Source of the DNA: Globisporangium splendens
Lineage: Eukaryota; Oomycota; Peronosporomycetes; Pythiales; Pythiaceae
DNA length: 64,000 nucleotides
Reading direction: 5' to 3'
NCBI GenBank assembly: GCA_006386115.1
Contig: VFIW01000006.1
Location: forward strand, 1,632,706 to 1,696,705
This document shows positions 31,771-64,000 of this stretch, in pieces. Both the position numbers and the translations under genes were made by a program. The number at the start of each line of letters is the position of its first letter. Position 1 is the stretch's first letter. The notes under the pieces were generated by a model, which was not told where the DNA came from, made no database searches, and worked only from the letters and a program-made list of their open reading frames with translations.

Positions 31771-32329
31771 ACATGAAGTATGTTCAGCGAGGACCTGCGC
31801 ACAAACAAACGTCACGTCATATTCACACACAACACCACGCGCGTCGCCACCCCCGCGACCTCCCACAGCCTCCGACAACCCCCTCTGCGCACACATGTTC
31901 ATACCATGCATGTCGCCCCTCCACGAACCGAACCGAACCGAACCGAACCGAACCGAACCGAACCGCACGCGCGCACAACACAACACAACACAACACGGAT
32001 CGCGTCTCTTGACCCCGTGTCCTGTCCTTGCGCTCGTCCTCCAGCTTCGCTCCAGACATCGCCCACACTCCACAAAAGCGGCTACACGGTCCACTGAGCG
32101 ACGTCCGGTACGAAACCTACTCGCTTCAACATACATACATGCTTGATTGCTTGATTGCGTTATTGTGGAGGCGGCGTCGGAGAGGCAAGAGCACCCCGAC
32201 GAACTCACAAAGCACCTGGGAAGCATCCTCGACACCTGCCAAAGCACACATCCATCTGTCCATCGTGTGCGCTCGTTCAGCATCCAAAAGCATCCAAAAG
32301 CATTCAAAAGCATCCAAAACGAAAAGGAT
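31771..32329. repeat. tRNA array spacer 0 (left-truncated)
   Basis: It matches the other spacers from about 31824 (ATATTCACACACAACACC) to the tRNA but lacks their first 100 bp or so, so it is the left edge of the array. It contains an ACCGA pentanucleotide run at 31924-31966 and repeats of CATCCAAAAG just before the tRNA. Apparent open frames of RFGSV repeats here are translations of the pentanucleotide. Confidence 0.75.
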
Positions 32330-32402
32330 TGCTCCCTACCAGGATCGAACTGGTGACCTTCAGATTATGAGACTAACGCTCTACCGACTGAGCCAAAGGA
32401 GC
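32330..32402 (-). tRNA. tRNA-Met (CAT), elongator type, copy 1
   Basis: 73 nt. The acceptor GCTCCTT pairs with AGGGAGC; D arm GCTC..GAGC; anticodon loop CTCATAA with anticodon CAT; T arm ACCAG TTCGATC CTGGT. The internal A and B boxes are intact. A TTTT terminator follows within 5 nt of the 3' end. LINE-A begins 2 nt upstream of the tRNA 5' end on the opposite strand. Confidence 0.93.
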
Positions 32403-32792
32403 ACTTCTCAATTTGCCGGCTACCCCTCAAGTTGAATCCAAGACCTCTCAGTCACCTCCCCCGCCTCTCAACCTCCGACTTTCCCATGGAAAATCCAGCT
32501 CCTCCCTCCACCCACCAGCTGCCAGCTGTCGACACTGGCTCGAAATCTGGGTCCATACCCTCTGTCGTGCCTCGTCCAACTGTCAGCCCATCCCCCCTCC
32601 AAAAATTTGGAAGGGTCCGAACCCACCCAAACGGGAAACCTGGTGGCGCCACCTGGGGTCAACCGCCATGTCTCTCCCACGACGAGCAACTTGAATGCAA
32701 CAACTGGTGTCGCTGGCCAAGCCCCTGCTCCTCCAACCCACGCAACTGCTCCGCCTCCCGCTGATCCCGCTCCTGTCGCTGACCCCGCCGCC

Positions 32793-35096
32793 ATGGTGGA
32801 CGATCCGATGGAGTCTGGCGGGAATGCTCAAGTGACGACCCTCGATCTCTCTGGCGACGACCCGATGGATCCTGCTGTCGCTGTCGCTCCTGCGAACGTG
32901 GACACTCGACTGTCCATGGCTGAGCTTCTGCGGCAACAAGAACATCTTCGTCGAGACCGAGCTGTGATCGAAGCAACTCGCAGACGCGTCGAGACTCCGA
33001 AGCCTCTCGCTGTCGACATCGAAGCGATTGAGCGCCAGTATGCTGCTGGAGGTGACTGGTCGCACATCGCGTCGCGAATGGAGCAAGCGCGTCCCTACCA
33101 GCTCCCGACCGCCAAGTACGACATGGTGATCGAGACTGGAAGAGCGCTCGCGAAGACTCCGCTCCAAAAGATCATGGCGTCGTTGGCCGGCACGAGCCAC
33201 GGAAACGCGACACTCGATGAGCTGTACCAGCGCTTCGAGATCGGTCAGATCTCCAAGCTCCCCGGCGGCAACCTCCGAGTCAAGGTCAAGACGAAGGAAG
33301 CCTGTGTGCGCTTGGAACGCACCAAGGTGAACATCCTCGGTGGTACGTTCACGTTCAAGGAGTTCGACATCCTTGGCGACAGGTATTTCATCGACATTGT
33401 CAACGTCGATCCCGACGTGGACATTCGAGTGATCGTGCACCGACTGTTCCTCCTCGGGTGCCAGCCGGTGTACCACACCTTTCGCGAAGTAAACCTCGCG
33501 ACGGGGATGACATCGGCGACCTGGCGAGTGTACTTCTTGTCCAGCTCGTGTCCAAGCGCGTTGGTCGTGAACGGGTCTGTGTGCGACCAGGTGTTGTTTG
33601 ACAACAAGCTGCACCCGGCACATGGAAAGAATGCTCCGTTCCAGTCGGAGCGACAGCCGTATGGGTATCGCTCGCACCATGGAATCGATCTCGGGTCTCC
33701 AGACAGTGTGTTCCCTCCCTCGAAGCCAGCTCCAGAGCAACCCCAGCAGCAACGACAACAGCCGCTGAGAACCTACGCTCAAGCTGCGAATGCGATGCCG
33801 AAGCAAACCTCGCTGCAGAAGGCAGTCGAGGAAGGAAAGAGACGGGAAGCCCAGCTCCAGCAGAGAGCTCAGTATGGCAAGTCGTCAGCTGAAACAGCAC
33901 TGGCCAAGCCGCGAAGCAACTCCGATGTGCTGTCGATCTCCACGTTCGACGACTCGCAAGGCAAGGTGACTCCACCAGGAAGTCCCAAACCGCCAATGAA
34001 GTCCCCGACGCTGCTCTTGACGAATGGAAACGACGGTTCCTCCACCGTGACAAACAAGAAGAAGCGCTCGAGAAACGGAGTCGACTTCTCCAACATGCTG
34101 GTGAAACAGCAACCGCAGCCTCTGGATGGTGTTGCCACCACCAACTACTTCCAGGTGCTGCAGTCGATGGAAGTGTCCTTCGAAGTGAAGAATGTGGTTG
34201 CGGACAAGAAGTATGGTCCTCGGTACCAAGTGATCCCTGTCGATGTGAAGCGTCCCGAGGCGCTCAAGACATCGACCGAGTCGGCTTTCTTCGTCGAGAA
34301 GCACCACACGAAGATCAGGAAAGCGTCGAAGGCGTCTCCGATCTTGGAGGTGTCCGAGTCGATGCTGAACGACGAGAACACGGCGTTGCTCAACACCCTC
34401 CCGGATCGTCTTGTGCTCGCAGACACTCAGGTCGAGGGTGCGAGCAAACTCATCGACAACGCCACGAACCCCGACCACGTCATCAAGAAGGCAGTGGACT
34501 CGCCGTTGGCTTTCAACAGCGCTCTGTCGCTCAAGATGGCAGGAAGTGGACGCGAGATCGCCGAGATTGCCCAGCTGCATGTGATCAACCGCGTGTTGAG
34601 TGCGACCCAGCCGAGCGAAGACACGACGTTCAGTGCGAAGTGGAAGAAGCTGATGAAGACGACGGTCCCGTCGAAGCGAGAAGAGTTGTTCAGAGCTTGC
34701 GCCAATTGGTGGACATCGTCGAACGAGATGAAGGAACTATCGCGAGCGGCGAAGGCTCTTGGGTTCTTCGAACTCATGCTGATGTCGATCGCGCCGACGA
34801 TCTTCAGCAACGACCACTGGATCCACTACATCACTGGTCAGCCGGTCGAGTGGATCCCCGCACACCACACGAGACTCCTCCACCCCAACACTCTCCTCAT
34901 GCTCTTGCGGTCGGACCTTGGTGCGCACTGCTTGAGTCAATGTAACGAAGTGCAGTGGCAGGGGTACTTGTTCGACGACCTGGAAGAGCTTCGCAAGCTC
35001 GATGGGTACTACCCGGTCGACGAGTCGGTGTTGCAGCTCCGAGTTGTCGAGGGAGAGGTGGTGATGGTAGCGGGAGGCTTGGCCACTCGCTGCTAA
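32793..35096 (+). CDS. ORF1 protein of LINE-A
   Basis: The open frame extends upstream to about 32550 without ATG; the first in-frame ATG is 32793 (GCCATGG). A start matching the other copies (MENP at 32486) lies in another frame, so the N-terminus may be frameshifted near the CCAAAAATTTGG run at 32600. A Pro/Ala-rich leader is followed by a conserved core (VETPKPLAVDIEAIERQYAAG, MTSATWRVYF) that may adopt an RNA-binding fold. LINE ORF1 proteins coat element RNA and act as nucleic-acid chaperones. The stop is TAA 35094-35096, and ORF2 is in the +1 frame. Confidence 0.75.
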   Translation: MVDDPMESGGNAQVTTLDLSGDDPMDPAVAVAPANVDTRLSMAELLRQQEHLRRDRAVIEATRRRVETPKPLAVDIEAIERQYAAGGDWSHIASRMEQARPYQLPTAKYDMVIETGRALAKTPLQKIMASLAGTSHGNATLDELYQRFEIGQISKLPGGNLRVKVKTKEACVRLERTKVNILGGTFTFKEFDILGDRYFIDIVNVDPDVDIRVIVHRLFLLGCQPVYHTFREVNLATGMTSATWRVYFLSSSCPSALVVNGSVCDQVLFDNKLHPAHGKNAPFQSERQPYGYRSHHGIDLGSPDSVFPPSKPAPEQPQQQRQQPLRTYAQAANAMPKQTSLQKAVEEGKRREAQLQQRAQYGKSSAETALAKPRSNSDVLSISTFDDSQGKVTPPGSPKPPMKSPTLLLTNGNDGSSTVTNKKKRSRNGVDFSNMLVKQQPQPLDGVATTNYFQVLQSMEVSFEVKNVVADKKYGPRYQVIPVDVKRPEALKTSTESAFFVEKHHTKIRKASKASPILEVSESMLNDENTALLNTLPDRLVLADTQVEGASKLIDNATNPDHVIKKAVDSPLAFNSALSLKMAGSGREIAEIAQLHVINRVLSATQPSEDTTFSAKWKKLMKTTVPSKREELFRACANWWTSSNEMKELSRAAKALGFFELMLMSIAPTIFSNDHWIHYITGQPVEWIPAHHTRLLHPNTLLMLLRSDLGAHCLSQCNEVQWQGYLFDDLEELRKLDGYYPVDESVLQLRVVEGEVVMVAGGLATRC

Positions 35097-35136
35097 ACCA
35101 ACCTCGACTCAGCCCTCGTGGAGCAACATTAGTGCC

Positions 35137-38100
35137 TTGTCCGTCAACACTAACGGCATCAAGAAGAACGGTCACTTATTTATCGACAGCGTGCTATCGA
35201 AACACTCGGTGGCATGCGTCCAGGAAACCAAGTTCAGCGACAAGCAACACCTCTTGACCTTCAAGTTTCACCTCGACTCAAGCTTCAAACACCAAGTCTT
35301 CGTGAACGACCCGAACTCCCAGTTGGATCGACCCACACGCGGGCGTAGTGGCGGTGTTCTCACTGTTCTTCGCTCTGACGTGCCGGGTTTCGAAACGGCT
35401 GCGGAACAACCAAGCCTCGCCGTCCCAGGTCGGTACCTCGTTGTGAAGCTGATGGTGAGCGACGCTCCCGTCTACATTCACAACGTGTACGCGCCAGTGG
35501 ACCGACAAGAAAAGCAACAATTCTTCTCGAGTCTCTCGACCGAAGACTTTGAAGATCAAGCGACACACCTTGTGTTGGGAGATCTGAACACGCCTTTGGA
35601 TCCCAGACTCGACTCGTCGTCTCCAGATCTGCGCTACGACCCGGCGCGGTCGAGCTGCCTTGCGTGGCTTGCTTGTCTTGGCGTTGTGGATGCGTGGCGT
35701 GTCCACCATGACACGAGGCGAGTCTTCACTGGTCCCTTGCCTCGCAAGAACCGGTTGGACTATATCCTTCTCTCGGAGGCGTTCTACGAACGCTTCTACG
35801 ATGACTCCAAGTACTTCGTTCCCCAGAACGCTGGTGACCACCTTGCTCACTGTGTGAGTTTCAAGACTGGCTCCCAGCTGCATGGACGCGGGTACTGGAA
35901 GTTTCCCCGTTACCTGCTGGAGTACCCAGTGGTTGTTTCCGCGGTCGAGAAGGAAGCGGAAGCAGTCCGAGATCAGCTCCGTGGCTCTATCAATCCTGGC
36001 CAAATCTGGGAGAGGTGGAAGACGAGAATCAAGACCCAGCTCCAAGACGTGCAGAAGAAACTGCGGATGCAAGACACTGCTGCGATCGAAGAGGCTCAAG
36101 CTGCGTTGGGCCAAGCGGCTGCTCGCTATCGAGATGCGTCGACCGAGAACAACCGCAGCGAGTTCGAAGAAGCCATGAAGATGTACAAGGAGACGGTCAC
36201 GAGGACAAGTCAATACAACCAGGACAGTGCGTTTGACTTCCAAGCGGCCAACTCCGAAAAGTCCACCAAGCACTTCTTCCGTCCGCTGGACACGAGCTTG
36301 CGAAGGGTCTCGATCGAGGAGGTGATGACACCGAGTGGAAGTGTCTCAACAAACCCTCACGAGATCTCTCTCCGCTTCCTGGAACACTGGGGGTCCGAGA
36401 TGGGAGATCCCGATAGTCCAGCAGGAAGAGCTCCTCCACCCGACGATGGCATGCAACGCAAGCTTCTCGACTCGATCGTCCGCTTCGTCTCGGAGGTCGA
36501 CCGTGCCATCCTGGATGCGCCGGTCACCGCTGCAGATATGGCAAGCGCGATCCGCCACATGAAGGCGACGTCGGCACCAGGCATGGACGGATTGTCGGCT
36601 GGTTTCTACCAGGTCGCTCCGGACGTGTTTGGCGAGTGCTTGAGCATCGTGTTCAACGATCGGCTTCGACGCGGCGTGCTGCTTCCATCTCAACGCAAGT
36701 CGGCAGTGGTGCTGCTGCACAAGAAGGGTTCGCGAGCGCAGCCTGGCAACTACCGACCCATCGCACTCGTGCAGGTCGATGTGAAGGTGCTGTCGAAGGC
36801 GCTGACGTACCGACTGCAACAAGTGATCCTCGACTTGATCCACCCCGACCAAAAGGGCTTCGTCAAGGGTCGCTCGATTCACCACCACGTTCGGTTCCTC
36901 GCGGATCTGCAAGACTTGGTGACCAGCCTGGATGAAGAAGCGTACGCGCTGTTCTTGGACTTCGAGAAGGCGTTCGACCGAGTCAACTGGGACTACATGT
37001 TCCGGCTGCTCGAGCGAATGGGGTTCGGCTCGGAGTTTACTCAGTGGATAAAGCTCCTGTATACTGACCCGCAAGCGCATCTTCTCATCAACCAGAACAT
37101 CCAACCCGCGCTACATCCGACGCGAGGAGTGAAGCAAGGCGATCCGTTGTCCGCGCTGCTCTTCGTCTTGACCATCGAGCCGCTCGGCAACCTGCTGCGG
37201 TCCCACGAAGAGTATGGAGTGTGTCTCAACGCAGACCACACCGCCACGAGCACGTTCTTCGCGGACGACTCGACTCTCCTGGGCAGCTCGATACCGAACC
37301 TGCAGGCGCAGCTAGGACTCGTGGAAGAGTACTGCAGAGGCTCCGGCGCGAAGCTGAACCTGTCCAAGTCGATGCTGCTGGCGCTCAACCGGAACCAAGA
37401 CTGCCCCACGCTGCCTGGCGTCCAAGTGCTCGGTCGCACGGAGACAGTGAAGTACCTCGGCATCCCGTTTGGACAGTCGCCCGTTAACGACAACATCGTC
37501 GAGTTCCTCGACCAGCGCTTCTACGACGGCTTCAAGATGTGGTACCGACGTGCAAGGACACTTCGTGGTCGGCTCTTGGTAGCTCAAACGATGGTGCTCT
37601 CGCGTCTGTGGCACTACACACAGCACGTAGCGATTCCAGCGACAGTGGTGAAGCGGTGGCAGTCGATGCTGAATCGATTCGTGCTGAGTCGAAAGTATGA
37701 TCGAGACGCGTCGCACATCCAGCTCATTCCACGCGAGTTCTTGTTCCATCGCAAGAGAGACGGCGGTCTGGGGATCCCAAGTCTAGACGCACAGCTCAAG
37801 AGACAGCGTCTTGCACTGCTGCTACAGTTCATGCGTGCGGCAAACAACGCAAGTGCTCGGAACTGGACGACAGCGAGCGTCGAGTTGCTGACGTCAGTGC
37901 TCCCTCGTTACGGAGAACGACAAGCCTTGGACTTCCTTGCGATCTCCCCGCTTCGACATGGCGACATGATCAAGTGGAGTCTGACCTCGGCGTGGTGGCG
38001 AGCGACTTGGGTCTGGTGGTACAAGATTCGCTGGGAAGTCACGTGGCGGGACCTTCCTTTGGATAAGCACGCTGCGTACGGTCTTCGACAGCCGATCTGG

Positions 38101-39219
38101 TTCCACTCGGACGCTAAACTGCACTACGAGCAGACTGCAAGGACGCACACCAGCTCAGCACATCGACGATGTATTGGGATGGTTCCCGAACCGCAACGCA
38201 GCTTTCGACTACACGTGTCGAGAGTCTTCGGCGTGCGTTCACTGGCTGACTTCATGCGCGAAGGTTGTGCTTGGCCGACGCAGCAAGACTTCGTGGAGCG
38301 ACACATCGACTTCACGCTCGTGTCTACGACTCCTGGACAACAGGTGAAGTGGCTGCGAGTGCTGTACAACGAAGCCACGCACATCGTCGAGCGTCTGAAT
38401 GCACGAGATTTTGTGCTACAGACCCCGCACACTGAAAGACGAGCACTACCACACCTGGGATGCAAGAGCGACGTCAAAGTGTGCTTGATTCCTGCGATTC
38501 CACGGTCAGCTATGCTTCGCGTGGTGTGGACACCAACACTGCCGACGAAACCACACCCGATGACTATACACTCGCGGAGTGTGCGTGAAGAGCAGATCAA
38601 GTCGTTTGTGAAATACAGCAAGCATCTGCGCAAGATCTTGCTTCCAGTCTTTGAAGACCTGCAGTTTCGTCTCGCGTTCCGTCTTCTGCCTGTGCGCGCT
38701 CGGTTCTGGTTCCTCGAAGCTGTACACCCACGCATCCAGTATTGCGTGCGTGACGGATGCGACGCAATCGAGACGGAGGAACACTTGTTCTTCGAGTGCA
38801 CTCTTGCAGCACAGCTGTGGAGTCACTTGAACCAACTGGTGTCGCCGCTCTTCCGTACGCGACCGACTTGGCATGACATCGCCTTGGCGACGAAGATGCA
38901 CGTGCGTGATGAGTGGGGAGACTGTGAAGAAGTAGTCCATGACGCTTGGCACACACTCCGCGCTGTAACGCTTCATTTCATTTGGACAGATCGAAATCGG
39001 TGCCTGTTCGACGGAAGACAGCCCACACCGTCGCTCCCTGCGCTCCAAGTGGTCTTCACGACATTTGCGGCGCACATCTGGTTCTTCGAAAGACGGTTGT
39101 ACGAGAGCGAAGACAAGCTAGCCTTGGCCACGGTTGTGCGCGCGATGAAGTCTCAGCCGGCTTTCGGCAGGTTTACCGACCTCCACCCTGGTATCACCAG
39201 TGTCCGCCAAACTGTCTAA
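35137..39219 (+). CDS. ORF2 of LINE-A: APE endonuclease and reverse transcriptase
   Basis: 1360 codons, intact. The APE-type endonuclease has VNTNGIK, QETK, LGDLNTP, RLDYIL and GDHLA; the RT has DFEKAFDRVNW, GVKQGDPLSALLF and FADD near 37260; a C-terminal CCHC motif (CVRDGCD..EHLFFEC) lies near 38745-38795. It nicks the target and primes reverse transcription. The block begins at a TTG, and no ATG lies at the conserved N-terminus. Conserved residues continue back to the ORF1 stop in the +1 frame, so translation probably depends on ORF1. Confidence 0.92.
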   Translation: MSVNTNGIKKNGHLFIDSVLSKHSVACVQETKFSDKQHLLTFKFHLDSSFKHQVFVNDPNSQLDRPTRGRSGGVLTVLRSDVPGFETAAEQPSLAVPGRYLVVKLMVSDAPVYIHNVYAPVDRQEKQQFFSSLSTEDFEDQATHLVLGDLNTPLDPRLDSSSPDLRYDPARSSCLAWLACLGVVDAWRVHHDTRRVFTGPLPRKNRLDYILLSEAFYERFYDDSKYFVPQNAGDHLAHCVSFKTGSQLHGRGYWKFPRYLLEYPVVVSAVEKEAEAVRDQLRGSINPGQIWERWKTRIKTQLQDVQKKLRMQDTAAIEEAQAALGQAAARYRDASTENNRSEFEEAMKMYKETVTRTSQYNQDSAFDFQAANSEKSTKHFFRPLDTSLRRVSIEEVMTPSGSVSTNPHEISLRFLEHWGSEMGDPDSPAGRAPPPDDGMQRKLLDSIVRFVSEVDRAILDAPVTAADMASAIRHMKATSAPGMDGLSAGFYQVAPDVFGECLSIVFNDRLRRGVLLPSQRKSAVVLLHKKGSRAQPGNYRPIALVQVDVKVLSKALTYRLQQVILDLIHPDQKGFVKGRSIHHHVRFLADLQDLVTSLDEEAYALFLDFEKAFDRVNWDYMFRLLERMGFGSEFTQWIKLLYTDPQAHLLINQNIQPALHPTRGVKQGDPLSALLFVLTIEPLGNLLRSHEEYGVCLNADHTATSTFFADDSTLLGSSIPNLQAQLGLVEEYCRGSGAKLNLSKSMLLALNRNQDCPTLPGVQVLGRTETVKYLGIPFGQSPVNDNIVEFLDQRFYDGFKMWYRRARTLRGRLLVAQTMVLSRLWHYTQHVAIPATVVKRWQSMLNRFVLSRKYDRDASHIQLIPREFLFHRKRDGGLGIPSLDAQLKRQRLALLLQFMRAANNASARNWTTASVELLTSVLPRYGERQALDFLAISPLRHGDMIKWSLTSAWWRATWVWWYKIRWEVTWRDLPLDKHAAYGLRQPIWFHSDAKLHYEQTARTHTSSAHRRCIGMVPEPQRSFRLHVSRVFGVRSLADFMREGCAWPTQQDFVERHIDFTLVSTTPGQQVKWLRVLYNEATHIVERLNARDFVLQTPHTERRALPHLGCKSDVKVCLIPAIPRSAMLRVVWTPTLPTKPHPMTIHSRSVREEQIKSFVKYSKHLRKILLPVFEDLQFRLAFRLLPVRARFWFLEAVHPRIQYCVRDGCDAIETEEHLFFECTLAAQLWSHLNQLVSPLFRTRPTWHDIALATKMHVRDEWGDCEEVVHDAWHTLRAVTLHFIWTDRNRCLFDGRQPTPSLPALQVVFTTFAAHIWFFERRLYESEDKLALATVVRAMKSQPAFGRFTDLHPGITSVRQTV

Positions 39220-39373
39220 CCGAATGACCCAAAATTTCGAACTGTCGAATAGCATGGCATGCTATTTGGAAGGGTTTTTCTCCCGATGCTGTCCGCCACG
39301 CGTTCGACAAGCTCATTTTCAAATTTTCCGGCTCCAGCTCAAGCGACTCAAGCGACGACCCCAGCAACTGAAG

Positions 39374-40675
39374 ATGGCTCCAGAACAAGTTCCAGCTCTC
39401 CTCCCAACTGAATCTCTACTCGCCGGCTCGAAGGCGGGCTCTCCTCTGCGGACTGTGTTGTCTCCGGCTGCACCCGAAAGGGAGACGGGGGGCATGAGCC
39501 CTGAGGTGTGCCCAACTGAAAGCCAGGCTGAGGAAGGTGACGGAATTGAGGCGGAGTCTGGCAACTGCGAATCAGCGTCCATGGACACGGGCAGCGCGAA
39601 CGACACTGAAAACCCTGCATCGGCGGATCTGTCAGTGCTTCTACCAGAGAGCCAAGAAGCTGATGCGGCGACGTCCGACGGCGACAACGTGAAAGATCGT
39701 GGCAGTGAAGGCAACAAAAGCGATGATGATGGCGACAGCGACGACAATGACAGCGACGGCATGGAGTCAACTGCCCAGCCGAATCCGACCGCCATTCAAG
39801 CATCCGCGGCGCCTGCAGTGGAGAACCCGCGTACAGTGGACACTGTACGCCGGTACACCTTACGGAAGCGGACTGCAGAGCAACTTGAAGCGATGCGTCC
39901 AGTCAAGCGTACCCGGCGATCAGTAATGACGGAGGAGACGGGTGAAATTGACTGCATCGACAACCGAAGGACCGTGGCGACTGGGCTCGAGTATCGCGTG
40001 ACATGGGTCGACGACTCGGACCCGATTTGGCTACCGCGAGACCAGTTGATCGAGGATGGCAATGCGAATCTCGTCGAGACGCTCGACGCATACCTACTCC
40101 GGTACCCGAACCGTGAGCTGACGTACCAAGCATACATCAGCAGAAACGCGAGAGCCTTCAGTGCGGTCGCCGACGGGGAGGACAATGCGTGCTTGCCTCA
40201 CGCTGTCCAGATGGCACTCGAGCTCCTCGGCCACCAGCAGGAGAGCGCACGACTCCCGGAGATTTGGACGGAGTACCTACAGAACGCGGTCGACGCCAAG
40301 GTTCCGCTCTACGAAGGTTTTCACAAGCTCGGCGAGATTGTGAGGTACTGCTCCAACGCGGTCCCAAGGTGCGGTGTGGAGCTCAACATCAAGACTCTCC
40401 GCAAGAACCTCTATGATGGGGAAGGTGCCGGTCCTATGGCGATTGTGCGCCGTGTACTTCCTGAGGACAAGGGAGATCGTGTGCTCAAGCCAGGCGTGTA
40501 CCTTGTCGGGGGGTACAAACGCAACATGCGGGCTCACTGCTTCGCAATGGAAGTCACTACGGACGAAGACATCATCGTACGCGAGAACGGGATTGACTCA
40601 GGCATCGGCGACCAGACGTGGCTTCGCATGATCAAGTTCATCCGCAGGATCAAGGTGCAGCATAACGAAGACTGA
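39374..40675 (+). CDS. ORF3 of LINE-A: chromodomain-like plus OTU-like cysteine protease
   Basis: 433 codons from ATG 39374 (AAGATGGCT), 155 nt after the ORF2 stop. Order: an acidic Ser/Asp-rich region (about 40-140), a basic tract (YTLRKRTAEQLEAMRPVKRTRR, a likely NLS), a chromodomain-like segment at about 203-240 (GLEYRVTWVDDSDPIWLPRDQ), then a protease-like domain with DNACLPHA (Cys273) and RAHCFAM (His388). The Cys motif resembles the OTU family. Possible jobs are targeting to chromatin and removal of ubiquitin-like marks, or processing of element proteins. The same ORF occurs in LINE-C and is absent from LINE-B. Function is inferred from motifs only. Confidence 0.72.
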   Translation: MAPEQVPALLPTESLLAGSKAGSPLRTVLSPAAPERETGGMSPEVCPTESQAEEGDGIEAESGNCESASMDTGSANDTENPASADLSVLLPESQEADAATSDGDNVKDRGSEGNKSDDDGDSDDNDSDGMESTAQPNPTAIQASAAPAVENPRTVDTVRRYTLRKRTAEQLEAMRPVKRTRRSVMTEETGEIDCIDNRRTVATGLEYRVTWVDDSDPIWLPRDQLIEDGNANLVETLDAYLLRYPNRELTYQAYISRNARAFSAVADGEDNACLPHAVQMALELLGHQQESARLPEIWTEYLQNAVDAKVPLYEGFHKLGEIVRYCSNAVPRCGVELNIKTLRKNLYDGEGAGPMAIVRRVLPEDKGDRVLKPGVYLVGGYKRNMRAHCFAMEVTTDEDIIVRENGIDSGIGDQTWLRMIKFIRRIKVQHNED

Positions 40676-40899
40676 TGAGTGACGCCACCTCTGTATACCT
40701 GGAGCCGTTGTGTCAGCGCCTCATGGGGTACAATGTACCCGGAGACTGGACAGAAGGAACTCCGCCATTTGGACTTAGTATACTCGCGGTGGATCTTTCT
40801 CACCCTTTCCAAGTTTGTTCGGCTAGGGTTATCTAACCCATATCGGCCATTCTACGTTATGGAGGAGCGGTTAAGAACAGGCTGGCTCGAAATCAAATG
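40676..40899 (+). other. Conserved 3' UTR of the ORF3 cassette, LINE-A
   Basis: About 190 bp match LINE-C 60376-60565, including inverted repeats GGGTAC-AAT-GTACCC and GGGTTA-TC-TAACCC, and end near ATGGAGGAGCG. The two elements diverge right after this point into different tRNA-like sequences. It may be the RNA structure recognised by the RT. Confidence 0.6.
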
Positions 40900-40972
40900 T
40901 GGACCACGGCGGGATTTGAACCCGTGTCTCCTGAGTGGAGAGATGGACCTCAGACAACTGAGCCAAAGTGAC
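40900..40972 (-). tRNA. tRNA-like sequence in LINE-A 3' region (degenerate)
   Basis: This 73-nt block has a T-arm-like GGGTTCAAATCCC, a GGCTCAG A-box-like start and an anticodon-arm-like TCTCC/GGAGA hairpin. The acceptor ends do not pair and the D stem has a mismatch. Isotype is not assigned. It is probably a tRNA pseudogene or remnant beside an element end. Confidence 0.4.
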
Positions 40973-41083
40973 AATACGCAAATATCAGGGAGTATGTACA
41001 ATAGTATTTATATCAGTTTCAGTCATTTTGCTAGGTAGATTGAGTAGTCACCCGGTCTATTCTAGTAATATAGACAACTTTCA

Positions 41084-41779: not shown

Positions 41780-41780
41780 A

Positions 41781-51159: not shown

Positions 51160-51160
51160 A

Positions 51161-54724: not shown

Positions 54725-54764
54725 GACGGTCCCGACGTCGCAACCGACTTGGAACAACGCCAGC

Positions 54765-57700
54765 GTGTTGACCGTGAACACGAACGGCGTCAAGAAGAAC
54801 GGACACCTCCTGATCGAAAACCTGCTGTCGAAGTACGCGATGTCGTGCGTCCAAGAAACCAAGTTCGCGGACCGCTCGCACCTCGCAAGCTTCAAGTTCC
54901 ACCTCGAGTCCGCATTCGAGCACAAGCTGTTCGTGAGCGACTCGAACTCGCTGCTGGATCGGCCGACGCGCGGTCGGAGCAATGGAGTGCTGACAGTGCT
55001 CCGCTCCGACTTCCCCGGCTTCGACACGGTGCTGGAGATGACCCGAATGACCGTCCCTGGCCGGTACCTCGTCGTGCGTGTGACGGTTGAGCTCGCTCCC
55101 GTCTACATCCACAACGTGTACGCGCCGGTGGACAAGCAAGAGAAACAAGCGTTCTTCTCAAGCCTGCCGACGGAGGAGTTCGAAGATGGCGCGACGCACT
55201 TGGTGCTTGGCGACCTCAACACTCCGCTGGACCTGAGCTTGGACTGTTCGACACCAGATCTGCGCTACGACCCGAGTCGTTCGTGCTGCCTTGAGTGGCT
55301 GGCACGTCTTGGAGTCGTCGACGCCTGGCGGATCCATCACGACTCGGCACGCGTGTTCACCGGTCCGATGCCTCGCAAGAACCGTCTTGACTACATTCTG
55401 GTCTCGGACGCGTTCTGCAACAGCTTCTACGGCGACGCCAAGTACTTCCTGCCGAGGCACGCTGGAGACCACCTGGCGCACAGTGTGTCGTTCAAGCCGG
55501 GCTCGCAACTGCACGGTCGAGGATACTGGAAGTTCCCGCGCTATCTGCTCGACTACCCGTTGGTGGTGTCGGCGATCCAGCGCGAAGCTGAAGATGTCTT
55601 GGCACAGCTCCGCTCCGCGTCAAACCCCGGTAAGACGTGGGAGCAGTGGAAGTCGAGCATCAAGGCGCAGCTGCAGGACCTCCAGAAGAAGCTCCGCGCA
55701 CAAGACACGCAAGCTGTCGAAGACGCTCGTGTCGCGCTGGATCAAGCTGCTGCTCGGTACCGAGTCTCTGCTGACGACGCCAACCGAGAACTGTACGAGG
55801 AAGCTATGCGCGACTACAAGGAGACGGTGACGCGGTCGAGCCAGTATCACCAAGACACTGCGTTCGACTTCCAAGCCGCGAACTCCGAGAAGTCGACGAA
55901 ACACTTCTTCCGACCGCTGGACACGACCTTGAGGCGGGTCTCGATCGAGGGAGTCGCGACACCGAGTGGAAGTGTCTCGACGAGCCCTCACGAGATCTGT
56001 CTTCGCTTCCTGGAGCACTGGGGGTCCGAGATGGGTGACCCAAACAGTCCGACAGGAAGAGCTCCTCCATCCGATAACGCTGTGCAGCGCAAGCTTCTCG
56101 ACTCGGTCGTCCGCGTCCTGTCAGAGCTCGACAGGGAGGCTCTCGACATGGACGTGACCGCTCTCGACTTGACCGAAGCCATCAAGCACATGAAGGCAAC
56201 GTCGTCTCCCGGCATGGACGGCTTGACAGCGGGATTCTACCAAGTCGCGCCGGACGTGTTCGGACAGTGCCTTGAACTGGTCTTCAACGATCGTCTTGAA
56301 CGTGGCAAACTTCTCGCGTCGCAGCGCAAGTCGGCTGTCGTGCTGTTGCACAAGAAGGGTTCGCGTGCAGACCCAGGCAACTACCGACCGATCGCGCTCG
56401 TCCAAGTCGACGTGAAGGTGTTATCGAAGGCGCTGACGTATCGGCTGCAGTCTGCCATACCGAAGCTCATCCACCCGGACCAGAAAGGTTTCGTCCGCGG
56501 TCGCTCGATCCATCACCACGTGCGCTTCCTCGCTGATCTCCAAGACCTCGTCACCAGTCGCGACGAAGAGGCGTACGCGCTGTTCTTGGATTTCCAGAAA
56601 GCGTTCGACCGGGTCAACTGGGACTACATGTTCCGGCTGCTCGAGCGCATGGGGATCGGGGACGGCTTCACGCGCTGGGTCAAGCTGCTGTACACGGATC
56701 CACAGGCGCATTTGCTGATCAACGGTGACATCCAGCCAGCGCTGCATCCAACGCGAGGCGTGAAGCAAGGCGATCCGCTGTCCGCGCTGCTCTTTATTCT
56801 AACGATCGAGCCGCTCGGCAACATGCTTCGATCGCACGAGGAGTACGGTGTGTGTCTGAATGACGACCACACTGCGACGAGCATCTTCTTCGCGGACGAC
56901 TCGACGCTTCTCGGCAGCTCCATCGTGAACCTTCAGGCGCAGCTTGGGCTCGTGGAGGAGTACTGCCAAGGCTCCGGCGCGAAGTTGAACCTGTCCAAGT
57001 CGGTGCTGCTGGCGCTGAACCGGAGTCACGACTGTCCGTCGATGCCTGGTGTCCAAGTGCTCGGTCGCTCGGAGTCGGTCAAATACCTCGGTATCCCATT
57101 CAGCCAGTCGGCTGTCGACGATCGCATCCTTGAGTCGCTTGACCAGCGTTTCTACGACGGCTTCAAGTCGTGGTATCGCCGCGCTCGGACACTCCGCGGA
57201 CGCCTCTTGGTCGCGCAGACCATGGTGCTCTCGCGCTTGTGGCACTACACGCAGCACGTCTCGGTTCCGTCGGCGGTCGTCCGGCGATGGCAGTCGATGT
57301 TGAACCGGTTCGTGCTGAGTCGCAAGCACGATCGCGACGCGACGCACGTCCAGTTGATCCCGAGTGAGTTCCTGTATCTGCGGCGCGCAGACGGCGGTCT
57401 TGGTGTCCCGTGTCTCGACGCGCAGCTCAAGCGACAGCGACTCGTTCTCTCGATGCAGTTTGTGGCGCAGGCTCGCGCGTCGAGCGGACGCTGGTGGACG
57501 ACTGCGAGCACGGAGTTGCTGCGGTCGATACTTCCTCGATACAGCGGCAGTCACGCGCTCGACTTGCTGACGATATCACCGCAGCGACACGGCGAGATGA
57601 TCAAGTGGCGACACGTGTCGACATGGTGGAAGACGACTTGGACGTGGTGGCATCGGACGCGATGGGAGAAGACGTGGCGCGACCTGCCGTCCGATGATCG

Positions 57701-58853
57701 CGTCGAGTACGCGCTTCACCAGCCGATCTGGTTCCACTCCGACGCCGATCTTCACTACGAGCAGCGCATGCGCGGCGGCACGACCGCTGCACATCGACGC
57801 TGCATCGGCATGGTGCCTGAGCCGCAACGAAGCTTCCGTCTTCACGTCTCTCGTGTCTTCGGTCTTCGGTCGCTCGCGGACTTCATGCGCGATGGAAGCG
57901 CGTGGCCGACGCAAGTCGACTTCGTGAATCGGCACATCGACTTCACACTTGTGGACATCACGCCAGCGAAGCAAGCCAAGTGGCTGCGCACGCTATACCG
58001 CGAAGCGACGCAGATCGTGGAGCGGCTTGGTGCACTTGCTGTTGTTCTGCAGGCGACCGACGGAGGTAGCCCGAGGTTGGTACCGTACGTTGGCGTCACG
58101 AGCAACGAGAAGCTGTGCTTGTTCCCGGAGATCCCGCGCTCGGCCGCCATGTGCATCGTGTGGACGCCGAAGTCGCCGACGAAGCCACACCCGATGAAGA
58201 TCCACTGGGATCGCGTCGACGAGGACACCATCAAGGCGCATGTGAAGCTTGGCAAGCGTCTGCGCAAGGTGCTGCTCCCGATCTTCGACGACCTTCAGTT
58301 CCGCCTGGCGTTCCGTCTTCTGCCGGTCCGGTCGCGCTTCTAGTTCCTGGAAGCCGCGAACCCGGGGATACGCAAGTGTGTGCGTGACGGCTGCGACGCG
58401 ATCGAGTCCGAGCAGCACTTGTTCTTCGACTGCACGCTCGCATCCGGACTGTGGCGACAGGTGCTCAGCATCACGACGAAGCTCTTCGCGACACGGCCGA
58501 CGTGGCTTGACATCGCGCTAGCGAGGCAGCTGCGTGTGCGCGACGAGTGGATGGACCACGAGACGATCATAGCCGACGTGTGGCATGTCCTTCGCGCGGT
58601 GACGCTTCACTTCGTGTGGTCGGATCGCCATCGGTGCCTGTTTGATGGAAGACAGCCGACACCGACGCTCGCTGCGCTTCATGTGGTGCTGACGACGTCC
58701 GCTGCGCACATCCGGTACTTCCAGCGACGCCTGTATTCAGCAGATCAGCAGAATCTGCTACGTGAAGCACTCCGGTGTCTGGGCACGCAGTCGGGTTTTG
58801 GCGGTTTTGTTGAACACCATCCCGGTATTACCAGTGTCCGTACAACTGCCTAA
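54765..58853 (+). pseudogene. ORF2 of LINE-C, interrupted by one TAG
   Basis: APE endonuclease, RT (FADD near 56895) and C-terminal CCHC motif as in LINE-A. TAG at 58341-58343 replaces the Trp codon of RSRFWFL kept in A and B; the frame reopens as 58380-58853 with the CCHC region. It begins at GTG with no conserved ATG; the upstream in-frame residues TWNNASVLTV match A and B. Confidence 0.88.
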
Positions 58854-58995
58854 CCGAATACCGGTGGAGGGGTACCAGTCAACACTGGCGATATGCAGTT
58901 TGGCAGTTTGCGGTCCCTGCTCTCCATGCCGAGGAGCTCATTTTCAAATTTTCCAGGTCCAGCTCAAGCAACTCAAGCACCCCAAGCAACTCAAG

Positions 58996-60375
58996 ATGGC
59001 CCCGCAGCAGGTCCCCGTACCCAAGCGATCTGACTCTCCCGTCGCCAACTCGAAGTCGGGCTCCCCTCTGCGGACTGTAATGTCTCCGGCTGCACCTGAA
59101 AAGGGGACGGGGGGCATGAGCCCTGAGGGGGGCTCGGCTGACGGCTCAGGCGACGAAGAGGATGATGTCGATGCTGCGGTCGAGGACCACGCCCAGCCGA
59201 GGACGGGCGAGGGAGACGACCTCGCAGCGACCGATCTCTCCGATCTCCTGCCGGAGGGGGTGAATGCCAACGTCGAGCTTGATGACGGCGACCGCGTGAG
59301 CACTAACGACCTTCCGAGCACCAGCGTGGGCGACAGCGAGAGCGACGACTCCAGCGCCAGCGAGGACGACGCCAACGGTGATGTCGACCGTACCGAGCAT
59401 GAAGAGGGCGAGCGCGAGGAGGAGAGTGAAAGCGGGGAGAGCGACGACGAGGACTCTGACCCGGAGATTGCGACCCCGCCTCCACTGACCACGGCGCAGC
59501 CAGCATCGGCGACGGCGACGAGGACCCTGACAACTGTGACTGGGTACCATCTTCGAAAGCGGACTGCTGAACAGCTCGAGGCTCTGCGTCCAGTCAAGCG
59601 CGCTCGGAAGTCTCGCGTGTGGGAAGGCGAAGGCGAGATCGACACCATAGACAAGCGGCGAACGACTGCCACGGGACTCGAGTATCGTGTAACGTGGATC
59701 GACGGCTCCGACCCGGTGTGGCTGCCGAGAGACCAGCTCATCGAAGATGGCAACCTCAACCTGATCGAGACGCTCGACGCGTACTACCTCCGGTACCCGA
59801 ACCGAGAAGTCAGCTACCAAGAGTACGTCAGCAGGAACGCGCGAGCTTACGCGGCAATCGCGGACAACGTGGACAACTCGTGCCTGCCCCACGCCATCCA
59901 AATGGCACTCGAACTGCTGGGGTATCAGCAGGAGAGCGATCGGCTTCCGGACATCTGGGTGAAGTACCTGCAAGACGCGATCGAGGCAAAGGTCCCGCTC
60001 AACGAAGGGTTCCACAAGATCAGCGAGATCGTTCGCTACTGTGCAAAGGGCGTGCCAGAGTGCGGAGTTGAGATCAGCATCAAGACCCTCCGAGTCAACC
60101 TCTTCGACGGTGAGGGCGCCGGCCCCATGGCTATCGCCAAGCGCGTTCTTCCCGACGAGGACGGTGGTCGCGTGCTCAAGCCCGGTGTATACATCGTCGG
60201 CGCGTACAAGCGCAACATGAGGGCGCACTGCTTCGCGATGCAAGTGACCGAGGACGAGGACATCATCGTGCGCGAAGAAGGCGTGGACTCTGGCATCGGC
60301 GACCAGACGTGGCTGCGCATGATCAAGTTCATCCGCAAGGTGGAAGTGAGGCAAAAGATTATCTCTGATGAGTGA
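58996..60375 (+). CDS. ORF3 of LINE-C: chromodomain-like plus OTU-like cysteine protease
   Basis: 459 codons, intact, from ATG 58996 (AAGATGGCC). Same order as the LINE-A ORF3: a long acidic region (strings of Glu and Asp), basic tract (HLRKRTAEQLEALRPVKRARK), chromodomain-like GLEYRVTWIDGSDPVWLPRDQ, and protease-like DNSCLPHA (Cys296) with RAHCFAM (His411). The Cys-His spacing of 115 residues equals that in LINE-A. ORF3 stays open although ORF1 and ORF2 of this element are broken. Confidence 0.74.
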   Translation: MAPQQVPVPKRSDSPVANSKSGSPLRTVMSPAAPEKGTGGMSPEGGSADGSGDEEDDVDAAVEDHAQPRTGEGDDLAATDLSDLLPEGVNANVELDDGDRVSTNDLPSTSVGDSESDDSSASEDDANGDVDRTEHEEGEREEESESGESDDEDSDPEIATPPPLTTAQPASATATRTLTTVTGYHLRKRTAEQLEALRPVKRARKSRVWEGEGEIDTIDKRRTTATGLEYRVTWIDGSDPVWLPRDQLIEDGNLNLIETLDAYYLRYPNREVSYQEYVSRNARAYAAIADNVDNSCLPHAIQMALELLGYQQESDRLPDIWVKYLQDAIEAKVPLNEGFHKISEIVRYCAKGVPECGVEISIKTLRVNLFDGEGAGPMAIAKRVLPDEDGGRVLKPGVYIVGAYKRNMRAHCFAMQVTEDEDIIVREEGVDSGIGDQTWLRMIKFIRKVEVRQKIISDE

Positions 60376-60579
60376 TCCTACCTCTGTACACCTGGAGCCG
60401 TTGTGTCAGCGTCTCTTGGGGTACATTGTACCCGCGGGACAGGACAGAAGGGACTCCGCCATTCGGACTAAGCATACTCGCGGTGGATCTTTCTCACCCT
60501 TTCCAAGTCTGTTCGGCTAGGGTTACATAACCCATATCGGCCATTCTACATTATGGAGGAGCGATCGAGAACCGGGTGC
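60376..60579 (+). other. Conserved 3' UTR of the ORF3 cassette, LINE-C
   Basis: It matches LINE-A 40676-40870 up to ATGGAGGAGCG, including the CTAGGGTTA..TAACCC inverted repeat. It then runs directly into the tRNA-Thr-like body. Confidence 0.6.
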
Positions 60580-60652
60580 TGCGCGCTGTGGGGATCGAAC
60601 CCACGACCTGCTGCTTACAAAGCAGCTGCTCTACCATTTGAGCAAACGAAGA
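60580..60652 (-). tRNA. tRNA-Thr (TGT)-like sequence with unpaired acceptor stem
   Basis: D arm GCTC AAATGGTA GAGC, anticodon arm GCTGC TTTGTAA GCAGC (anticodon TGT) and T arm GTGGG TTCGATC CCCAC are all perfect. The 5' seven nt (TCTTCGT) do not pair with the 3' seven (AGCGCGC). It is therefore a tRNA gene broken at one end or a tRNA-like module of the element. Confidence 0.6.
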
Positions 60653-60889
60653 TTGTCGACAAGAAGGCGAAGCGACTCCAACCTGACACAATCGGCACGG
60701 ACACAACTTCAAGCAACATCGCATACCTGATTCAAGTAACATTCAAGCAACCGTAGAGCAATATTCAAGAAAAACGACCTTAAAAGTCGAAGATGAGATA
60801 GTATGTACGATAGTATTTATATCAGTGAGGTTAGTCATTACCCGGTAGATTGAGAAGCCACTCAGTCTATTGTAATAGACAAACTTTCA

Positions 60890-60906
60890 ACTGAGCCAAA
60901 GGAGCA
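60890..60906. repeat. 17-bp target duplication (tRNA-Met 5' end)
   Basis: ACTGAGCCAAAGGAGCA between LINE-C and the truncated N1 copy. Confidence 0.85.
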
Positions 60907-61032
60907 CTCACCCCAACACAGAATTAAAGAGAAGCCTTAGTGCTAGCATCATAGAATACGCAAGGGCGTAGCGAGCAATTAGAAGTCAGTTTGCCGTACT
61001 ATTTATTAACAAAAATATACGGACACCTTTCA
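60907..61032 (+). mobile_element. 5'-truncated N1 copy
   Basis: 126 bp matching only the 3' end of N1 (CACCCCAACACAGAATTAAAGAG to CACCTTTCA), flanked on both sides by the 17-bp tRNA duplicate. 5' truncation with target duplication is typical of target-primed reverse transcription. Confidence 0.8.
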
Positions 61033-61049
61033 ACTGAGCCAAAGGAGCA
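61033..61049. repeat. 17-bp target duplication (tRNA-Met 5' end)
   Basis: ACTGAGCCAAAGGAGCA to the right of the truncated N1 copy. Confidence 0.85.
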
Positions 61050-61658: not shown

Positions 61659-61731
61659 TGCTCCCTACCAGGATCGAACTGGTGACCTTCAGATTATGAG
61701 ACTAACGCTCTACCGACTGAGCCAAAGGAGC
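61659..61731 (-). tRNA. tRNA-Met (CAT), copy 5
   Basis: Same 73-nt sequence as copy 1. N1 copy 3 starts 2 nt upstream of its 5' end. Confidence 0.93.
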
Positions 61732-61732
61732 A

Positions 61733-62387
61733 CTTCTCAATTTGCTCGCTACCCCACAAGTCGACTCTTCAGAAGTACCCAAGCCCAGCACCACTCCACT
61801 TCCTCCACCTCTCTCTCCCACCCACTCTGCCTGCAGTATGGGTGTAGGGAGAACGAAGAAGAAGCGCAAGAAGACGCGCGTTTGGAGTCTGCATCGACAT
61901 CGCCTTCCAGTTCGCCTCGCAACTGTCCGTCGATCGGCTCCGTCGGTAGAGCTGATGCACTTCGCTGAGCGAAGCGACCCGCATTGCGCGTGAGCAACTG
62001 CAAGACGACCGAGAGAGGTCGCGCTTGTGCGAGCGGGGAGTGCTCCGATCGCCAGCACGATCTCGAAGAATCAACCCACAAAACAAGAATCAACCCACAA
62101 CACAAGAATCAACCCACAACACAAGAATCAACCCAGAATCAAGTTACAACCCAACAATCCAGCCTCAAGTGTCGCAACACCAACACTCACAGTTATAGGC
62201 CATGACACAAATGCAAACTTCACCAAGCCAACACCAACGATCGCAAAGCAACAAACAACATCTCACCCCAACACAGAATTAAAGAGAAGCACTAGTGCTA
62301 GCATCACAGAGTACGCAAGGGCGTAGCGAGCAAGTAGAAGTCAGTTTGCCGTACTATTTATTAACAACAATATACGGACACCTTTCA
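61733..62387 (+). mobile_element. N1 copy 3, non-autonomous LINE-related element
   Basis: 655 bp with the N1 ends and small ORF (ATG near 61838). The minisatellite (62066-62137) has a different unit ending, CACAACAC, and the following segment is diverged, so it is a separate subtype. Its right flank is a tRNA 5' end of another isotype. Confidence 0.75.
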
Positions 62388-62404
62388 ACTGAGCTATCGA
62401 GGCA
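62388..62404. repeat. 17-bp tRNA 5'-end duplicate of a different tRNA
   Basis: ACTGAGCTATCGAGGCA. On the minus strand this reads TGCCTCGATAGCTCAGT, the start of a tRNA other than tRNA-Met. It lies between N1 copies 3 and 4 and shares only the A-box part with the other duplicates. Confidence 0.65.
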
Positions 62405-63067
62405 CTTCTCAATTTGCTCGCTACCCCACAAGTCGACTCTTCAGAAGTACCCAAGCCCATCACCACTCCACTTCCTCCATCTCTCTCTCCCACCCACTCT
62501 GCCTGCAGTATGGGTGTAGGGAGAACCAAGAAGAAGCGCAAGAAGACGCGCGTTTGGAGTCTGCATCGACATCGCCTTCCAGTTCGCCTCGCAACTGTCC
62601 GTCGATCGGCTCCGTCGGTAGAGCTGATGCACTTCGCTGAGCGAAGCGACCCGCATTGCGCGTGAGCAACTGCAAGACGACCGAGAGAGGTCGCGCTTGT
62701 GCGAGCGGGGAGTGCTCCGATCGCCAGCACGATCTCGAAGAATGAACCCACAAGACAAGAATGAACCCACAAGTCAAGAAATCAACCCACAAGACAAGAA
62801 TCAACCCTCAAGGGAAGAATCAACCCAGAATACATCCTCGAGTGTCTCACACCGACACTCACACCTCAAAACAGCAAGGTTCAAAGACCTGACGCACAAG
62901 CAACCTTCACCAAGTCAACACAAACGACTGCATAGCACAACCAAAATCTCACCCCAACAGAATTAAAGAGAAGCCTTAGTGCTAGCATCATAGAATACGC
63001 AAGGGCGTAGCAAGTAGAAGTCAGTTTGCCGTAGTATTTATTAACAACAATATACGGACACCTTTCA
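62405..63067 (+). mobile_element. N1 copy 4, non-autonomous LINE-related element
   Basis: 663 bp; the 3' half is like copies 1 and 2. Small ORF from ATG near 62509; minisatellite 62738-62830. The left flank is the non-Met tRNA fragment, the right flank the Met fragment, so its flanks do not match. Confidence 0.75.
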
Positions 63068-63084
63068 ACTGAGCCAAAGGAGCA
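63068..63084. repeat. 17-bp target duplication (tRNA-Met 5' end)
   Basis: ACTGAGCCAAAGGAGCA to the right of N1 copy 4. Confidence 0.85.
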
Positions 63085-63696
63085 ATATACTCGCCCTACC
63101 CCACACGCTCACAACACATTCAAAACAACACACACAACACACGCGCTCCACACGCCACACCTCGCACACAACACACAACATCACACCATATTCACACACA
63201 ACACCACGCGCGTCGCCACCTCCGCGACCTCCCACAGCCTCCGACAACCCCCTCTGCGCACACATGTCCATACCATGCATGTCGCCCCTCCACGAACCGA
63301 ACCGAACCGAACCGAACCGAACCGCACGCGCGCACAACACAACACAACACAACACGGATCGCGTCTCTTGACCCCGTGTCCTGTCCTTGCGCTCGTCCTC
63401 CAGCTTCGCTCCAGACATCGCCCACACTCCACAAAAGCGGCTACACGGTCCACTGAGCGACGTCCGGTACGAAACCTACTCGCTTCAACATACATACATG
63501 CTTGATTGCTTGATTGCGTTATTGTGGAGGCGGCGTCGGAGAGGCAAGAGCACCCCGACGAACTCACAAAGCACCTGGGAAGCATCCTCGACACCTGCCA
63601 AAGCACACATCCATCTGTCCATCGTGTGCGCTCGTTCAGCATCCAAAAGCATTCAAAAGCATCCAAAACATTCAAAGCATCCAAAACGAAAAGGAT
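63085..63696. repeat. tRNA array spacer 5
   Basis: Same layout as spacer 1; ACCGA run at 63294-63323. The repeat just before the tRNA is changed to CATCCAAAACATTCAAAG. Confidence 0.85.
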
Positions 63697-63769
63697 TGCT
63701 CCCTACCAGGATCGAACTGGTGACCTTCAGATTATGAGACTAACGCTCTACCAACTGAGCTATAGGAGA
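63697..63769 (-). tRNA. tRNA-Met (CAT), copy 6, with a foreign 5' end
   Basis: Nt 17-73 equal the other copies apart from one D-loop base, but the first 16 nt read TCTCCTATAGCTCAGT, giving mismatches at both ends of the acceptor stem (T1 with C72, A7 with A66). It is probably a chimera with another tRNA's 5' end and may be non-functional. LINE-D starts 2 nt upstream. Confidence 0.75.
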
Positions 63770-63770
63770 A

Positions 63771-64000
63771 CTTCTCAATTTGCTCGCTACCCCACAAGTC
63801 GACTTCCAGAAGAACCCCTCTCCCACCCCGCCCGCCGCTCCCGCCGCCGTCTCGACCTTCCCCATGGAACCTCCGACTGCCGCCTCTGCTCCTCTCGTCG
63901 TCCCCTCGTCTCCGCCTGTCGTGCCTCCACGTGTCGCACCTGGCCAAGAATCTGGGTCCACACCCAGTATCCAGCCTGGTTCCAAGGTCGGCCCATCCCC
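63771..64000 (+). mobile_element. LINE-D, 5' end only (continues outside window)
   Basis: It begins CTTCTCAATTTGCTCGCTACCCC, the shared LINE/N1 5' end, at the tRNA 5' end, and leads into an ORF1-like start. The rest lies beyond the window. Confidence 0.75.
63861..64000 (+). CDS. ORF1 of LINE-D, N-terminal part
   Basis: ATG 63861 (CCCATGGAA) starts MEPPTAASAPLVV and stays open to the window end. The Pro/Ser/Val-rich leader resembles the LINE-A leader (GSIPSVV versus GSTPSIQ). Confidence 0.6.

Follow-up and report, generated by a model that had tools for sequence, protein, structure and literature searches.

Six genes for the methionine transfer RNA, tRNA-Met(CAT), stand in an array in the genome of the oomycete Globisporangium splendens, and at the 5' end of every one of them a retrotransposon begins. 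What brings the elements to this one position, and how do the genes survive their arrival? The array lies in a stretch of 64,000 nucleotides (nt), referred to here as the window, which spans C162:1632706-1696705 of a genome of 53.3 Mb in 195 contigs (contigs carry C numbers; coordinates without one are window positions). The note published with this genome describes a PacBio/Illumina hybrid assembly of 53.3 Mb with a longest scaffold of 1.7 Mb (PMC7163027). Our analysis indicates that long interspersed nuclear elements (LINEs) of the L1 group, along with a dependent non-autonomous element, N1, very probably insert inside tRNA genes by target-primed reverse transcription and rebuild the tRNA in doing so.

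The target duplication and the true ends of the elements

The basic unit of the array is a spacer of ~0.6 kb plus a minus-strand tRNA-Met gene, and the array extends to the end of C162 (1,715,059 bases), 18.4 kb beyond the window. All six tRNA-Met(CAT) genes in the window are on the minus strand, and Rfam concurs with the calls (64.0 bits for five, 48.3 for the sixth). The element 5' end, CTTCTCAATTTGC, directly adjoins the tRNA 5' end in 6/6 cases, which bears out an earlier note on this DNA that had placed the 5' end of a plus-strand LINE or N1 beside each gene; the gap of 2 nt given there shrinks to the 1 nt between tRNA nt 1 and CTTCTC, which is the element's own A. Across the genome there are at least 15 tRNA-Met copies, 13 of which directly abut an element while 2 have an empty 5' side. 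The 17-mer ACTGAGCCAAAGGAGCA occurs as 12 exact copies in the window, all on the plus strand, and as 14 matches when up to 3 mismatches are allowed, against 0.20 expected in shuffles. Genome-wide we found 32 copies, all on the plus strand of the contigs as given, and none of the reversed control.

Whether this repeat belongs to the target or to the element can be read from tRNA units that hold no insertion. The two empty Met units (C162:1705802 and 1714855) have the order tRNA, 17-mer, spacer, and the empty units of tRNA-Met, Lys, Ala and Thr(TGT) each carry one copy of the repeat, which is therefore a target-site duplication. The true ends of the element follow from the same comparisons (slashes mark joins). 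An empty Lys unit reads GACGGGC/ATGAGTGCC, and when filled it reads GACGGGC/A/CTTCTC at one side and CTTTCA/AC/TGAGCTAGACGGGC/ATGAGTGCC at the other. Thr(TGT) reads CACAGGC/GCAACTC when empty and CACAGGC/A/CTTCTC when filled, so the A is the element's first base. At tRNA-Ala, the 5' copy and the empty unit have TT/TGAGC whereas the 3' copies have AC/TGAGC (11/11 labelled Ala), which makes AC the final two bases of the element. Judged from these sequences, the provable duplication is 14 bp, tRNA nt 1 to A14, with the extra A (5') and AC (3') derived from the element; at tRNA-Met and Lys it appears to be 17 bp because AC and A coincide with the target there. The earlier note's target duplication of 17 bp is thus sound for 14 bp, and its other 3 bp are element ends, as Thr(TGT), Ala and the contrast of empty and filled sites reveal. 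Its claim that the duplication rebuilds the tRNA 5' end stands, since nt 1-14 are repeated at filled sites and single in empty units.

That all 17 bp are instead part of the element and carried along with it is extremely unlikely. Three of the 17 bp do prove to be element-derived at other tRNA types, and two tRNA bodies bear another tRNA's 5' end (C162:1696476 and C35:84330), but the other 14 bp match the host tRNA's own sequence site by site and are present once at empty sites, and for them we rejected this explanation. The first of these two chimeric genes has Asn nt 1-17, with ACTGAGCTATAGGAGAA, on a Met body, and the second has a Met 5' end on an Ile body; the donor 5' end may have been carried by element RNA, or gene conversion may have placed it there. 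Most junctions in the array have the tRNA-Met copy that had been described, with two departures: the sixth tRNA gene, with its Asn sequence, and the junction at 62388-62404, which carries a tRNA-Phe 17-mer within the Met array.

Insertion at many tRNA types across the genome

A search of the whole genome for the element 5' end, allowing up to 3 mismatches, found 108 places, 100 of which were listed and all examined; the reversed pattern gave no match. Taking as a 5' flank tRNA nt 1-14 directly before the element with at most 1 mismatch, 86 of the 100 listed 5' ends follow a tRNA. They comprise Met (15), Phe (13), Ala(AGC) (12), Ile (9), Thr(AGT/CGT) (8), Asn (6), Thr(TGT), Lys and Tyr (5 each), Gly (2), Leu(TAA), Ser(GCT), Ala(CGC) and Arg(ACG) (1 each) and a sequence on C182 (2). 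The linker between the 14-mer and CTTCTC is exactly A in 73/86 and ends in A in 86/86. ARAGORN called a tRNA adjoining 68/100 listed 5' ends, 67 of the 68 ending 0-6 nt from CTTCTC, with one intron-containing Tyr gene called as Phe. Fourteen of the 100 are stacked, lying directly behind the 3' end of another element. The 14 listed ends outside the 86 comprise nine on C63 at a site in 5S ribosomal RNA (rRNA) genes, two without a tRNA (C46 and C151), a Met copy lacking 1 nt, a Lys copy over the limit with 2 mismatches and an insertion on C164.

The 3' ends give a matching picture. We found 97 places with the LINE tail pattern and 32 with the N1 tail pattern (backwards controls, 18 and 4), discarded 25 and 2 of them by eye, and retained 72 LINE and 30 N1 ends with the family tail. 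Of these 102, 91 are followed by tRNA nt 1-14, with exactly AC between in 90: Phe (23), Met (16), Ala (11), Ile (10), the two Thr groups (7 and 5), Lys (7), Tyr (5), Asn (4), and His, Ala(CGC) and C182 (1 each). The remaining 11 are the C164 insertion, an Ile copy with extra bases, an end on C143 with similar sequence, and eight without a listed 14-mer. Random flanks, a possibility that the earlier note had raised, are rejected by both sets of ends, and the target it named, tRNA-Met, is confirmed yet too narrow, as many tRNA types are entered and a sister group occupies 5S genes.

Could the pattern have arisen by passive spread, in which an element landed by chance beside one tRNA and the unit of tRNA plus element was then amplified in tandem? 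The tRNA genes here do form tandem arrays (Met and Lys units of ~0.7 kb), and some adjacent insertions resemble copied units, for example five N1 elements in Ile units on C35. The identical join recurs, however, at about 15 tRNA types with unrelated spacers and with three LINE lineages as well as N1; empty units lie within the same arrays, and the stacks amount to repeated hits at one site. Passive amplification is largely refuted by these observations, and we regard it as very unlikely. LINE1, LINE2 and LINE3 of the window belong to separate lineages, so one duplicated unit cannot explain their position.

Several observations weigh against insertion into tRNA genes as a general rule. The list of 14-mers was derived from the same junctions that it was used to score; no tRNA was called for one of its 15 entries, C182 (2/86 ends), the Gly entry depends on an Rfam tRNA match with its type read by eye, and Leu(TAA), Ser and Arg were seen on the 5' side only. 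Up to 8/102 3' ends lack a listed 14-mer, although tRNA types off the list could hide there, and the C164 insertion lies 19 bp upstream of a tRNA-Leu(CAA) gene. The counts cover occupied genes, with just 63 places scored by the tRNA search, and single units of tRNA-Gln, Ile(TAT) and Trp are empty; therefore not every tRNA gene is occupied. When each 5' end was matched to the next listed 3' end, giving 73 pairs (51 LINE-length and 22 N1-length), both sides had the same tRNA label in 57 and differed in 16. Finally, no relative at the DNA level from another host was found in viral contigs, which were searched twice, or in genome contigs. Targeting is thus not absolute, given the at most eight off-target 3' ends and C164.

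The 16 differing pairs fall into several kinds. In seven, the tRNA differs from one side of the element to the other (Phe/Met on C29, Thr/Phe on C34, Ala/His on C114, Gly/Ala on C115, Thr/Ala on C122, Met/Ala(CGC) on C129 and Ile/Phe on C188); by their sequence, these look as though arrays or neighbouring genes had been joined by recombination at elements. Three come from the array of the window itself, namely the Asn 5' end and the Phe junction, which counts twice, and one is the Ile body with a Met 5' end at C35:84330. Three have no tRNA label (C46, C151 and C164), and two are tRNA copies whose mismatches or losses exceed the limit (C111:1854 and C125:10650).

How the elements may enter a tRNA gene and restore it

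We propose that the element's endonuclease nicks the sense strand of the tRNA gene in the A box, after the universal A14 (GGCTCA/GT), that element RNA ending in CTTTCAAC is copied from this nick, and that the opposite strand would then be cut 14 nt from the nick, between nt -1 and +1, where the mature tRNA begins. Repair would duplicate nt 1-14, and the copy beside the tRNA body would restore a complete gene, now flanked on its 5' side by the start of the element (ACTTCTCAATTTGC) and presumably transcribed. The second copy would stay with the old 5' flank, open to another insertion, from which stacks could grow. A14, which lies in the D arm and within the A box, is invariant, and its constant spacing from nt 1 allows one cut to fit many tRNA types. 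The insertion point lies between nt 1 and nt 14, with C164 as the one exception. Behind the nick, the next two bases may be GT, AA, AT or GA, and the nick therefore follows A14 and not these bases. Pairing of the element RNA 3' end with the A box was also considered; only the terminal AC is demonstrably element-derived.

How the gene is found may depend on the A-box sequence, on RNA polymerase III (Pol III) factors, or on both. It is possible, if tentative, that the endonuclease alone recognises the A box by direct DNA recognition, as in other target-specific LINEs. The nick is fixed at A14 wherever both sides were seen, and TGA, equivalent to TCA/ on the nicked strand, stands at the join in five of the eight off-target 3' ends (in four cases behind AC) and also at C164 and C143. 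As a motif, TCA is much too short to confine insertion to tRNA genes, yet no more than 8/102 3' ends are off target, and the insertion 19 bp upstream of a tRNA looks guided by the gene and not by the motif. We give an even chance to the view that TFIIIB and TFIIIC bring the element to the gene, where the endonuclease then cuts the A-box TCA. Pol III transcribes tRNA and 5S genes alike, related elements target both, and TRE5-A of Dictyostelium takes this route (PMC5391098, PMC5911963), although the single-nucleotide precision here is tighter than that of TRE5-A. The TGA at off-target joins suggests a short endonuclease preference (TCA), with which a factor bringing the element to Pol III genes would act.

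The sister elements start with CTTTCCAATTTGCCAGC, close to the start of the tRNA family, and sit in 5S rRNA genes. At locus L189 on C121, a sister element begins where a 5S gene is interrupted at GAAGTTAAGC/A. The nine listed 5' ends on C63 follow a 5S 17-mer, mostly ~1.5 kb apart; two of these units, read at length (L188), repeat head to tail, and the array passes at one end into the remainder of a 5S gene (loci L188 and L199). These elements leave the 5S gene broken, not rebuilt.

The safe-site targeting that the earlier note had put forward would fit this anatomy. On balance we favour a broader reading, in which both cuts are fitted to the fixed geometry of the tRNA, many and perhaps all tRNA types can be entered unbroken, several lineages persist by this safe-site rule here and perhaps oomycete-wide, and the 5S sister branch switched to or from 5S genes. 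As the duplication repairs the gene at once, tRNA genes in general would become usable as harmless landing places, and a parasite could spread without breaking essential genes. The tRNA arrays of this oomycete have also been reshaped, with units spread apart, arrays apparently joined at elements and chimeric tRNA genes formed. The elements offer a clear system for testing how LINEs find Pol III genes, and they might also yield a precise insertion tool.

The elements and their layout in the window

ORF2, the second open reading frame (ORF), of the three window LINEs encodes an apurinic/apyrimidinic (AP) endonuclease (PF03372) and then a reverse transcriptase (RT; PF00078) in one frame, and Pfam at E 0.001 gave no further domain in these three frames. 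With LINE2 ORF2 as the query, the closest solved relative is the LINE-1 ORF2 protein (E 5e-60, residues 18-881), R2 proteins being far weaker. By sequence the elements are AP-endonuclease retrotransposons without long terminal repeats (non-LTR), of the L1 group in the wide sense, and they show the L1-group traits of target-site duplications and 5'-truncated copies (N1 at 60906-61034). NeSL-related elements carry a restriction-like endonuclease; in place of this enzyme, which marks NeSL, LIN and Utopia, we found the AP type, and in place of the DDE transposase and short duplication of Dada we found RT plus AP endonuclease and 14 bp.

An RT tree of 42 pieces, built by a quick method and with several forks open, long branches outside the group and no named references from Tx1, the clade of Dewa, Mutsu and Keno, placed the three window LINEs in separate branches. 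A second G. splendens copy and a metagenome protein share the branch of LINE2, a metagenome protein is the neighbour of LINE3, and LINE1 belongs to a nine-member set along with LINE3, proteins from Plasmopara and Peronospora, and metagenome proteins. Protein relatives reach 76% identity in Plasmopara and 70% in Peronospora. The search of genome contigs returned two distant LINE matches (28% and 26% identity) in bacterial records, which are probably contamination.

LINE1 (32403-41085, plus strand) is full length at 8.7 kb, running from its initial A to CTTTCAAC, and has a third frame, ORF3. It adjoins the first tRNA-Met gene (32330-32402, minus strand), whose nt 1-14 form the 5' copy of the target duplication (32389-32402), the 3' copy being at 41086-41099. 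Its ORF2 frame with AP endonuclease and RT (35071-39219, plus strand, stop to stop) is open over 1382 aa, and that of LINE2 (46159-50313) over 1384 aa. An array spacer (41086-41706, plus strand) starts with the 3' target copy and ends at the 3' end of the second tRNA-Met gene (41707-41779, minus strand), which is followed by an N1 of 0.73 kb (41780-42506, plus strand). The third gene (43254-43326, minus strand) carries the full-length LINE2 of 7.1 kb (43327-50472, plus strand).

The fourth gene (51087-51159, minus strand) bears a stack of three plus-strand elements (51160-61034): an N1 (51160-51886), LINE3 (51901-60891; 9.0 kb, with ORF3, its ORF1 and ORF2 frames broken by stops) and the truncated N1. 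The fifth gene (61659-61731, minus strand) bears a pair of plus-strand N1 elements (61732-62389 and 62404-63069, together 61732-63069). The sixth gene, the Asn/Met chimera, lies at about 63697-63769 on the minus strand, and the 5' end of LINE4 (63770-64000, plus strand) follows, continuing to about C162:1705135. All six genes rest on a tRNA call plus Rfam. Elsewhere in the window, outside the array, 45-bp and 30-bp tandem repeats are each present in two similar blocks ~8.4 kb apart (16391-16506 and 24811-24926; 19734-19876 and 28160-28305).

N1 elements measure ~0.66-0.80 kb and have their first bases and the terminal CTTTCAAC in common with the LINEs. A 3' stem (GTCTA with TAGAC in LINEs, CCGTA with TACGG in N1) appears in many, not all, single folds. 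An antisense tRNA-like sequence lies in the 3' untranslated region of LINE3 (60580-60651, minus strand; Rfam 46.3 bits). A different tRNA-like stretch, seen by eye alone, is present in LINE1 (about 40895-40973) and two C111 copies; Rfam did not call the LINE1 stretch, and ARAGORN found 0 tRNAs in 20 LINE 3' ends.

ORF3 is present on the plus strand in LINE1 (39149-40675) and, as its counterpart, in LINE3 (58693-60375), and LINE2 has no such frame of at least 200 aa downstream of ORF2. It had no match above the Pfam cut-off; LINE3 ORF3 gave a weak chromodomain match in the PDB by phmmer (cpSRP43, E 5e-4), and relatives were found in Phytophthora cactorum. An AlphaFold model was too poor for use (mean pLDDT, the predicted local distance difference test, 43). 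A C-terminal cysteine protease was considered as a possible reading of its sequence.

Comparison with known target-specific elements

Non-LTR elements linked to tRNA genes are already known (TRE, Dewa, LIN); the G. splendens LINE is site-specific, with a target geometry that spares the tRNA gene. In Dictyostelium, TRE5 insertions lie 40-54 bp upstream of tRNA genes and those of TRE3 40-150 bp downstream (PMC5911963, PMC5391098, PMC5006619), with 80% of TRE5-A insertions within 47 +/- 3 bp upstream (PMC5391098, PMC5911963). Like the elements described here, these are L1-type non-LTR elements with an AP endonuclease that use many tRNA types, TRE5 also inserting near 5S genes, but they land outside the gene and have poly(A) tails, whereas ours land inside it and end in CTTTCAAC, with CTTTCA and then AC plus the target at 90/102 3' ends. 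The available portions of the TRE accounts make no mention of tRNA rebuilding (PMC5911963, PMC5391098, PMC5006619).

Dewa, in a tRNA-Leu spacer, Mutsu, in 5S genes (PMC3706591), and Keno, with a U2 target and an AP-type endonuclease (PMC3706591, PMC4640811), have in common with our elements strict sites in or by small-RNA genes; they are set apart by their descriptions, which give each one kind of gene and place Dewa in a spacer (PMC3706591, PMC4640811). The sister group on C63 and C121, which inserts inside 5S rRNA genes, resembles Mutsu by its site. The planarian LIN15_SM and LIN25_SM are likewise non-LTR elements that target tRNA genes, those for tRNA-Arg and tRNA-Glu, but they are NeSL-related and keep to one tRNA type each (PMC4640811). 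Utopia, an oomycete target-specific non-LTR element with several lineages kept in small-RNA gene arrays, differs in its restriction-like endonuclease and its U2 small nuclear RNA target (PMC4640811). In several families of Dada DNA transposons the insertion point also falls within the A box of tRNA genes, at nt 8-13, but these have a DDE transposase and a 6-bp duplication; the tRNA genes are described as disrupted, and the families are largely bound to one or few tRNA types, unlike the G. splendens elements (PMC8869645, PMC3706591).

In the parts of the open literature covered, with subscription papers and Repbase outside that scope, we found neither a non-LTR element that uses the A box as its site in tRNA genes of many types and restores them nor an earlier description of these oomycete elements. 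Where the known tRNA-linked LINEs of these accounts sit outside the gene (TRE) or keep to one tRNA type (LIN, Dewa), those of G. splendens follow one rule at about 15 types.

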